Assembly: GCA_040388375.1 (NCBI GenBank)
Contig: JAZKBU010000003.1
Span: 124,001 to 188,000, forward strand
Reading direction: 5' to 3'
Length of the DNA stretch: 64,000 nucleotides
Source: Bacteroidota bacterium
GTDB taxonomy: Bacteria; Bacteroidota; Bacteroidia; UKL13-3
Shown: positions 18,234-23,798 of the stretch, piece after piece
Layout of the letters: each line of letters starts with the position of its first letter
Numbering within the stretch: position 1 is the stretch's first letter
Made by a program: the position numbers and the translations under genes
The notes under the pieces: generated by a model
What the model was told of the DNA's origin: nothing
The model's input: only the letters and a program-made list of their open reading frames with translations
Database searches by the model: none

Positions 18234-18297
18234 GTTTTATTTGTTTTGTTTATATAATTTGTAACCACAATGGTATAAAAATTGTTTTGAAGAGTTG

Positions 18298-20229: not shown

Positions 20230-21099
20230 TCAAATTCGTTTTTCAATAAATGCCTGAATAGCAGCATTTACCTCATCACTTTTTTCAATTTGTACAAAAT
20301 GGCCTGCATTTTTTAAAAGCAGTACCTCGCTGTTTTCTATTAAAGCTTCCGCTTTTTTTGCAATGCTGCTCACCGTTTCGGTAGGATGCAGTAACAGGTT
20401 GGGAATCATTGCATCGTTTTCTCCAAAAATAATAAGTGTTTCCTGATTTATTTGGGGCAAAAACTGTTGTACTTGCTCTGATAGCATGCCATTAATGGAA
20501 GCCGTAATCATTTGCTGCCAATTGCCCGTTTTTTGTAAAGGAATAAAAGCTTTTGATTCGTCAATTACTTTATTAATAAGCTTATGATCAAAACGATAAA
20601 AGCTTTGTTTAATCGCATTTTCCAAATAAAACTCATTGCTGTACATAAATTGCCCCATCTGAATACTTTGGTTAACCATCATTTTATCCAACTCAGAAAA
20701 GTACTCAAGCCCGCTTGCTGCTATTAAAACAAGTTTACTAACCAAATGCGGATAGCGCAAGGCAAACACCATGGCTATATGCCCACCCATACTGTGCCCT
20801 ACTAAATGAATAGTTTCCAATTGCAAAACATCTATTAATTTTTTGATGCATTCGGCATAAAAAAACATGCTGTATGGATAGTTTCCATGGCTTGAGTTTC
20901 CGTTACCGGGCAAATCAATGGCTATGCAACGAAACTTTTTAGAAAGGTTTTCTGTTGTATAATTCCAAATTCCTTTGTGATTACCTAAACCATGAATAAA
21001 TAAAATAGTTTGTTTCCCTTTGCCTGATTCATTGTAGGCAATTTCTATATCAGATGTGATGAATGTTTTGTTCAATTTAATAATATAAGCGAGTGGCAA
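20230..21099 (-). CDS. Alpha/beta hydrolase
   Basis: A 289-residue alpha/beta-hydrolase fold protein. The oxyanion region is FIHGLGNHKGIW, the nucleophile elbow GHSMGG has Ser103, the acid is likely in FGENDAMIP and the catalytic histidine is in NAGHFVQIEK. It resembles small esterase or carboxylester/C-C hydrolases, but the substrate cannot be read from sequence. The start is uncertain: the frame opens with TTG at 21099, and another TTG at 21075 would shorten it by eight residues; no suitable ATG exists. The palindrome upstream of lon lies in its divergent promoter region. Confidence 0.85.
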   Translation of the reverse strand: MPLAYIIKLNKTFITSDIEIAYNESGKGKQTILFIHGLGNHKGIWNYTTENLSKKFRCIAIDLPGNGNSSHGNYPYSMFFYAECIKKLIDVLQLETIHLVGHSMGGHIAMVFALRYPHLVSKLVLIAASGLEYFSELDKMMVNQSIQMGQFMYSNEFYLENAIKQSFYRFDHKLINKVIDESKAFIPLQKTGNWQQMITASINGMLSEQVQQFLPQINQETLIIFGENDAMIPNLLLHPTETVSSIAKKAEALIENSEVLLLKNAGHFVQIEKSDEVNAAIQAFIEKRI

Positions 21100-21175
21100 G
21101 TTATTTTAATTATTTAATTAGACTTATGTTTAAATAAGAATTAGAAAAATAAAGCAACTAAATAAAAGGTAAAGG

Positions 21176-21200
21176 TATTTGGCACTTGAATTGCCAAATA
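21176..21200 (+). promoter_or_regulatory. Perfect palindrome overlapping a sigma-54-like -24/-12 element upstream of lon
   Basis: TATTTGGCA, seven bases, then TGCCAAATA form a perfect 25-base inverted repeat. Within it, TTGGCAC-N5-TTGC matches the -24/-12 consensus with the required GG-N10-GC spacing. The lon ATG lies 34 bases downstream. It could be a sigma-54 promoter, a repressor operator, or both. On the minus strand the GG-N10-GC spacing is also present but with a poorer -12 match. Confidence 0.55.
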
Positions 21201-21233
21201 TTAATTCCTTAAAAAATAATCACCGTAATATAA

Positions 21234-23711
21234 ATGATAAATATACCTGAAGACGTTAATTTTGAAGAGTGGGCAGATAATGACGATGATGATTCCACCG
21301 GTATTCCGATAACACTTGATGATAAAGATTTATTGGTAAACGTGGAAGATTTGCCCGAAGTGCTGCCAATTTTGCCGCTTCGTAATACAGTTCTGTTTCC
21401 AATGATGGCATTACCTGTTAGTATTGGACGCGAAAAATCCAATAAACTGATTAAAGATGCTAAGAAAAACAAATCGTATATTTTAGTTGTAACCCAAAAA
21501 AACATAAAAGCAGATGAACCGGAAATTGGCGATTTGTACAAAATTGGGACTTTAGCCAAAGTATTAAAGGTTATTAAACTCCCCAATAACCAAGAGACGG
21601 TTTTTTTACAAGGTATTAAGCAAATAAGCCTGCATGATATTACTGAAACAGAACCTTATCTAAAAGGTACATTTACGGTAAATGAGCAATTGGTTGATAC
21701 AGAGGATAGCAATACGCGCGATTTAATAACAACCATTAAAACATTAGCTACTGAGTTAATTCAATTGCATGGCGCTTTTTCGCCAGAAATGGCTAGTGGC
21801 ATTAAACGTATTGACAATCCATTGTTATTGATGGCATTGGTAGCTACTAATTTAAATGCAGAAGTAGAGTCGAAACAACGTATTTTAGAGAATGATTCCT
21901 TGGGTAAAATGGCTCAGGTGCTGGTTGAGTTAATGATGGCTGAAAAAGAGTTGTTACAACTTAAAAATAAAATACAAGACAAAGTACGTGGAGATTTGGA
22001 TAAGCAGCAACGCGAATTTTTCCTTCACCAACAAATTAAAGCTATTAATGAAGAGCTGGGCTCAGAAAGCCCGGAGCAGGAAATTGAAACCTTAAAAGCA
22101 AGAGCTAAGGATAAAAAATGGCAACCGGAAATAGCAGAAGCATTTAATAAAGAACTGGAGCGTTTGAAAAGAATTAATCCAATGGCTCCTGATTATAGTA
22201 TTCAGGTTAATTACTTAAATACCTTGTTGGATTTGCCATGGGATGAAACAACAAACGATAACTTTGATTTAAAAAGAGCAGAAAGCATTTTAAATGAAGA
22301 CCATTTTGGGTTAGAAAAAGTAAAACAACGTATATTAGAATACCTGGCAGTTTTAAAACTAAAAGGCGATATGAAAAGCCCTATACTTTGTTTGTACGGC
22401 CCTCCGGGAGTCGGTAAAACAAGTTTGGGCAAATCAATTGCCAAGGCTTTAGACAGGAAATATGCACGTATAGCATTGGGTGGTTTGCATGATGAAAGCG
22501 AAGTGCGCGGACACCGTAGAACTTACATAGGAGCTATGCCGGGGCGTATTATTCAAAACCTGAAAAAAGTAAAAAGCAATAATCCTGTTTTTGTATTAGA
22601 TGAAATTGATAAAATACAAACCAGTTTCAGAGGCGATCCTTCCAGTGCATTATTAGAAGTATTAGATCCAGAACAAAACGGAACTTTCTACGATAATTTT
22701 GTAGAGATAGATTATGACTTATCAAAAGTAATGTTTATAGCTACCGCTAATAATTTAGATGCTGTTCAGCCTGCTTTGTTAGACAGGATGGAGATTATAG
22801 AAATTAACGGATATACTTTAGAAGAGAAAGTAGAAATAGCCAAAAAATATTTAATTCCAAAACAGGAATTGAATCATGGTTTGAAGAAAAACAGCTTTGA
22901 ACTAAGTAATGAAGTGTTGGAAAAAATTGTAGATGGCTACACCAGAGAAAGTGGTGTACGTGGTTTAGAGAAAAAAATAGCTGCTATTGCAAGGCATATT
23001 GCTATGCAAAAAGTAATGTTTAAGAAAAACAAAAAAACAATTGACTTAACAGATATTCAAACCATTTTAGGGGTTGAGCGTGGCGATAAAGAAATGTATC
23101 AGGGTAATGATGTGGCAGGAGTAGTTACAGGTTTAGCCTGGACAAGTGTAGGGGGTGAAATACTTTTTATTGAAAGTAGTTTAACTAGGGGAGCAGGCAA
23201 ACTTACATTAACAGGCCATTTAGGCGATGTAATGAAAGAATCAGCTATTACTGCATTAACTTTTCTGAAAGCACATTGCGATTATTTGGGTATAGACCCG
23301 AAGGTATTTGACAAGTTTGATATACATATACATGTGCCTGCAGGAGCGGTTCCTAAAGACGGTCCATCAGCAGGTATTACCATGCTTACTTCATTAGCCA
23401 GTTTATTTACCCAACGCAAAGTAAAACCTCAATTGGCTATGACCGGTGAGATTACTTTACGCGGAAAAGTATTGCCAATTGGAGGTGTAAAAGAAAAAAT
23501 ATTGGCAGCTAAGCGAGCAGGAATTAACCATATAATTTTATGCGAAGCCAATAGAAAAGATGTAGAGGAAATAAGTAAACATTATTTAAATGATTTAACT
23601 TTTCACTATGTAAAAAATATGCTTGAAGTTATTGATTATGCTTTGCTTGATGAAAAAGTAGAGCACCCTGTAAATATGACTATTGAAGAAGTAAAACCCA
23701 CTGAAAAATAG
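21234..23711 (+). CDS. lon: ATP-dependent protease Lon (endopeptidase La)
   Basis: An 825-residue cytoplasmic AAA+ protease degrading misfolded and regulatory proteins. Order: LON substrate-binding N-domain (LPILPLRNTVLFPMM from about 41), a coiled coil (about 200-300), the AAA+ module with Walker A GPPGVGKT at 389-396 and Walker B FVLDEIDK, a sensor region, and the C-terminal serine-lysine protease domain. Catalytic Ser712 sits in PKDGPSAGI and Lys755 in GGVKEKILAAKRAG, with the normal 43-residue separation. It is complete. An acidic N-terminal leader (FEEWADNDDDD) is a feature of Bacteroidota Lon. The -24/-12-like palindrome upstream may control it. Confidence 0.98.
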   Translation: MINIPEDVNFEEWADNDDDDSTGIPITLDDKDLLVNVEDLPEVLPILPLRNTVLFPMMALPVSIGREKSNKLIKDAKKNKSYILVVTQKNIKADEPEIGDLYKIGTLAKVLKVIKLPNNQETVFLQGIKQISLHDITETEPYLKGTFTVNEQLVDTEDSNTRDLITTIKTLATELIQLHGAFSPEMASGIKRIDNPLLLMALVATNLNAEVESKQRILENDSLGKMAQVLVELMMAEKELLQLKNKIQDKVRGDLDKQQREFFLHQQIKAINEELGSESPEQEIETLKARAKDKKWQPEIAEAFNKELERLKRINPMAPDYSIQVNYLNTLLDLPWDETTNDNFDLKRAESILNEDHFGLEKVKQRILEYLAVLKLKGDMKSPILCLYGPPGVGKTSLGKSIAKALDRKYARIALGGLHDESEVRGHRRTYIGAMPGRIIQNLKKVKSNNPVFVLDEIDKIQTSFRGDPSSALLEVLDPEQNGTFYDNFVEIDYDLSKVMFIATANNLDAVQPALLDRMEIIEINGYTLEEKVEIAKKYLIPKQELNHGLKKNSFELSNEVLEKIVDGYTRESGVRGLEKKIAAIARHIAMQKVMFKKNKKTIDLTDIQTILGVERGDKEMYQGNDVAGVVTGLAWTSVGGEILFIESSLTRGAGKLTLTGHLGDVMKESAITALTFLKAHCDYLGIDPKVFDKFDIHIHVPAGAVPKDGPSAGITMLTSLASLFTQRKVKPQLAMTGEITLRGKVLPIGGVKEKILAAKRAGINHIILCEANRKDVEEISKHYLNDLTFHYVKNMLEVIDYALLDEKVEHPVNMTIEEVKPTEK

Positions 23712-23763: not shown

Positions 23764-23798
23764 AAAAAGACCTGCATATTGCAGGTCTTTTTATTTTT
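23764..23798 (+). terminator. Rho-independent terminator after lon
   Basis: AAAAAGACCTGCA / TGCAGGTCTTTTT is a perfect stem with a three-base loop, followed by ATTTTT. Confidence 0.9.

Follow-up and report, generated by a model that had tools for sequence, protein, structure and literature searches.

A perfect palindrome in front of lon in one genome of an uncultured Bacteroidota genus, most likely a by-product of a probable sigma-54 promoter

Could a perfect palindrome that lies directly on a promoter serve as the operator of a regulator, or is its symmetry a product of the promoter itself? This question is raised by the DNA in front of lon in a Bacteroidota genome, within a stretch of 64,000 nucleotides that was analysed as a whole and is referred to here as the window. 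A preliminary description of the locus had read the same bases both as an inverted repeat and as a -24/-12 promoter. The features at issue are the following:

20230–21099, minus strand: alpha/beta hydrolase gene (PF00561), divergent from lon, a neighbour of lon in four of nine genus-mates
21176–21200, no strand: perfect inverted repeat (two 9-bp arms around a loop of 7 bases), its right arm missing in all nine genus-mates
21179–21194, plus strand: probable sigma-54 promoter of lon, with -24 box TTGGCA (21179–21184) and -12 box TTGC (21191–21194), TGGCA-N6-TTG being conserved upstream of lon
21182–21196, minus strand: possible -24/-12 site TGGCAATTCAAGTGC (GG-N10-GC, -12 box GTGC) directed towards the hydrolase gene, not conserved
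21234–23711, plus strand: lon, ATP-dependent protease of 825 aa (Pfam PF05362 and PF02190)

The 25 bases at 21176–21200 read TATTTGGCACTTGAATTGCCAAATA, and the inverted repeat TATTTGGCA-N7-TGCCAAATA that had been noticed there is indeed perfect. We observed that this is the sole place in the window that matches the palindrome pattern at up to 3 mismatches, and that 17 of 100 shuffles contained at least one such match. Perfect inverted repeats with 9-bp arms and loops of 3–12 bases occur at nine separate places in the window, which has 35% G+C. Counted with nested copies, these places give 17 rows, compared with a mean of 7.3 (range 2–15) in 12 first-order random sequences. Because equally long perfect repeats are found at nine places, the palindrome taken alone, as a repeat, is no more than chance expectation. 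Furthermore, two of its nine arm pairs are dictated by the promoter boxes (TGGCA against TTGC). Another perfect inverted repeat, AAAAAGACCTGCATATTGCAGGTCTTTTT, with A and T runs, lies 53 bases past lon (23764–23792) and looks like a two-way transcription terminator.

The promoter motif TTGGCAC-N5-TTGC is contained within the palindrome. Its GG (21181–21182) and GC (21193–21194) are separated by ten bases, and the T of TGG is 54 nt from the lon ATG at 21234, so the GG-N10-GC spacing and the suitable distance reported in the preliminary description both hold. From general knowledge of sigma-54 promoters, the lon transcript would start near 21206. A scan of both strands of 21061–21240 found no TAnnTTTG box. 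Elsewhere in the window, loose -24/-12-like sites of the form TGGTA[CT]-N5-TTG[ACT] are present at 18271 (+), 31538 (+) and 37039 (-).

As a -24/-12 site in front of lon, the promoter exceeds chance expectation, as its conservation shows. In a first set of 76 lon loci, reduced to 74 by the removal of two (L088 and L096) without a lon start, 64 loci had TGGCA-N6-TTG in the 350 bp upstream of lon, compared with 0–2 of the 74 for spacers of 2–5 and 7–11 bases and none of the 74 for the minus strand at N6. Some misses carry a one-base variant (TGGTA in L074 and L078), and five Bacteroidales loci (L066, L079, L080, L087 and L091) have no such match upstream of lon. A second, overlapping set, drawn from 58 genomes with one (G053) left out for a cut-off lon start, gave the motif in 51 of 57 loci (30/30 and 21/27). 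One locus of this set (L238), with only about 200 bases upstream of lon, was counted as a miss, and another (L168) has the one-base variant CGGCA. Nearer to the window, the nine genus-mates (L022–L028, L084 and L090), in which lon is 83–85% identical to that of the window, all keep TTTGGCATTTATATTGT at the identical distance from the lon ATG. The site before lon is very probably, as far as comparative sequence evidence goes, a genuine and widely conserved stress-type (sigma-54) promoter.

The genome also contains the machinery that such a promoter would need. There is a single copy of rpoN, with an ORF of 489 aa, so that the check on its presence proposed earlier turned out in favour of the promoter. 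Five sigma-54 activators with a full AAA+ domain were found, four with a receiver domain and one without, and HTH_8 was detected in four of the five. A conserved -24/-12 site, TGGCAANACTTTTGAT, precedes grpE by 67 nt from the ATG in 9/9 loci of the genus (L228 and eight others), and about 20 further bases are kept there upstream of the -24 box. The strict sigma-54 motif was absent from the groES (0/11) and hsp20 (0/5) loci of the genus. Because these two genes lack the strict site, the flavobacterial proteostasis regulon appears to be found only partly in the window's genus. Upstream of lon itself, the ten loci of the genus share no block kept in all except the promoter, and no enhancer for an activator was recognised in them.

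The protease family COG0466 is one that we take to be Lon. Among the predicted sigma-54 targets of Bacteroidota, COG0542, COG0466 and COG1066 are listed with the enriched proteases (PMC12316311, available portion), so that this regulon shares a Lon-type target with the window, as COG0466. The regulon is a prediction over many genomes, and the available text of that paper mentions neither a palindrome nor divergent control. A closer counterpart is Flavobacterium psychrophilum, in which, according to the accessible part of the report, 5' ends were mapped and Lon, GroES, DnaK, GrpE-DnaJ, HtpG and ClpB were placed under -24/-12 promoters (PMC9723704). These sigma-54 (SM4) proteostasis promoters resemble the window in having a -24/-12 site before lon. 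The two cases differ in that the lon start was mapped in F. psychrophilum, whereas we infer it in the window, and in that GroES belongs to the F. psychrophilum list, whereas groES of the window's genus lacks the strict site; the same part of the report mentions no palindrome (PMC9723704). The sigma-54 promoter at lon is thus of a kind already known and mapped in a flavobacterium. Together, the conserved site and its distance from lon, rpoN, the activators and the F. psychrophilum mapping give the sigma-54 reading of the preliminary description good support.

What, then, of the palindrome? It could be an operator, gained only in this species, at which a dimeric regulator rivals RpoN polymerase for lon, and its perfect 9-bp arms, centred on the promoter, speak for this. 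On the other hand, the right arm is present in none of the nine genus-mates, in which the promoter is intact. Where these read TCAATAT, TAAATAT or TAAAACA after TTG, the window reads CCAAATA; it has TTGC in place of the genus's TTGT, and the flank that comes next completes the arms, whereas only 4–6 of the nine arm pairs are left in the genus-mates. The genome search found no second exact copy of the palindrome, and all six copies with one mismatch lie inside ORFs. The palindrome is also not found at the grpE site, and perfect repeats of its length are common in the window.

Among 92 distinct lon sites, 85 show no more consecutive arm pairs than the two inner ones, which the boxes themselves set. 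The window's site has nine consecutive pairs, and a distant genome (G057, locus L177) has seven, which provides a second lon site of the same form and speaks for an operator. At least two lon sites with arms of at least 7 arose in 3.5% of right-flank shuffles and in 0.2% of single-column shuffles, the window's own flank being included in both. The palindrome at lon is therefore mildly commoner than expected, and we count this as evidence against its being a by-product. When 395 genomes of the class were searched directly for TTTGGCA-N6-TTGCCAAA, 18 sites turned up in 17 genomes, 11 of the sites in ORFs and seven between genes, including the window's. Only two of the 18 lie at lon, those of the window and of G057. 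In one genome (G111; L254 and L261), two similar exported-protein genes each carry this sequence 18–20 bp before the ORF.

As judged from these alignments and searches, the palindrome at lon is rare and not conserved. The proposal that a dyad-binding regulator competes with RpoN polymerase is accordingly unlikely, with the right arm kept in 0/9 genus-mates and no family of sites in the genome: the checks on conservation of the palindrome and on further genomic copies, both suggested at the outset, went against it. We rejected the dyad operator for its lack of conservation and of copies, and give it only a slim chance.

Could the dyad be a bidirectional sigma-54 promoter, for both lon and the divergent hydrolase gene? 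GG-N10-GC occurs on both strands of the dyad, a point absent from the preliminary description, and the hydrolase gene is divergent from lon in the window and in 4/9 genus-mates. RpoN polymerase might then park either way in mutually exclusive closed complexes, and one activator might alternate between lon and the hydrolase gene, a scheme that we consider improbable. The minus-strand -12 box is GTGC instead of TTGC, and the minus-strand site is not kept in the four genus-mates that have the hydrolase gene. Among 35 more distant loci, with flanks of 1.5–2.5 kb, none was found to have the hydrolase gene beside lon. The earlier suggestion that the site also acts on this gene is thus unsupported, given a neighbour present in only four of nine genus-mates and none of the 35 distant loci, and a minus-strand site that is not conserved. 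Conserved control of the hydrolase gene was rejected, as it is not adjacent in 5/9 genus-mates.

A symmetric site elsewhere nevertheless favours the general possibility of a bidirectional reading, being perfectly symmetric and lying between divergent genes (genome G278, locus L250). There, TTGGCA-N6-TTGC is read on both strands at locus positions 1501–1521, fully symmetric and midway between two divergent ORFs that are 86 and 89 bp off, a cleaner symmetric example than that of the window. The bidirectional (pseudo-symmetrical) promoters of E. coli are comparable in that one stretch of DNA may engage polymerase both ways, as the window's might (PMC12825309, available portion). No link to sigma-54 is stated in the accessible text (PMC12825309), and in the window, unlike the E. 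coli case, the -12 box of the minus strand departs from the symmetry, which is also not conserved. A literature search by titles and the starts of abstracts found no paper on symmetric sigma-54 promoters. If the bidirectional reading were true, which for the window we doubt strongly, symmetric -24/-12 sites such as that of L250 would constitute a class of their own, that of bidirectional sigma-54 promoters.

Taken by itself, the motif TTGGCA-N6-TTG has little specificity: the genome contains 75 occurrences (39 forward and 36 reverse; control, 23 and 19), and 28 of the 30 sites checked for context lie inside ORFs, the two other places being lon and a gene for a probable exported protein. The off-register yardstick TTGGCA-N7-TTGC occurs at 26 places. 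From these 75 mostly intragenic occurrences (where checked), one might argue that the -24/-12 match before lon arose by accident and that a different promoter drives lon, but the conservation at lon across the phylum, with the exact spacer, is too strong and no TAnnTTTG box lies nearby on either strand, so this reading was rejected as very improbable.

We therefore favour the reading in which the site is the sigma-54 promoter of lon and the palindrome a by-product of it, and assign it a probability of roughly 0.85 on the strength of the comparisons above. The palindrome is peculiar to the window's genome and most likely a by-product that the promoter sequence gave rise to by chance. It needs no function, because the boxes are partly complementary and the flank of this genome completes the arms. 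In the organism, RpoN polymerase would bind TTGGCAC-N5-TTGC as a closed complex and wait there until one of the five AAA+ activators opened the complex, so that Lon would be made upon a stress signal, probably together with the products of other proteostasis genes, such as grpE. Use of the promoter in the organism, the stress signal and the choice of activator are parts of this scheme that we infer from general knowledge of sigma-54 promoters.

A different element was observed in other Bacteroidota. Of 99 distinct lon upstream regions, 40 contain the palindromic TGNCA-N3-TGNC, and the reversed sequences contain none. Other spacers of 0–10 bases gave 0–8 matches at lon, except for a spacer of 7, with 25 matches that are largely the promoter itself. 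The element at lon (L022–L097) mostly starts 49–62 or 104–142 bases after TGG, with a few starts before it. At grpE (L291–L310), 13 of 20 loci have its start exactly 25 or 26 bases ahead of TGG, and the reversed sequence has none. These grpE loci come from 23 genomes picked for having the element at lon, of which 20 gave a GrpE match above the cut-off. All 20 were scanned, and a 21st match (L311), below the family cut-off, was excluded. At groES of the same genomes (L262–L284), the signal is weak, with 8 of 22 loci compared with up to 6 at other spacers; one of the 23 groES loci had no start found, and six further matches (L285–L290), five of them weak or second Cpn10 matches, were excluded. 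In the window's genus, the element was found at none of the lon (10), grpE (9) or groES (10) loci. Either an activator or a repressor may act at this element, to which a so far unrecognised regulator of chaperone and protease genes in Bacteroidota possibly binds. Our literature search found no paper on it.

These results indicate that partial complementarity between its two boxes can make a -24/-12 site look like an operator. They make sigma-54 control of lon very likely in an uncultured genus of Bacteroidota. In other members of the phylum, TGNCA-N3-TGNC offers a concrete handle on the regulator that may stand behind the chaperone and protease genes.
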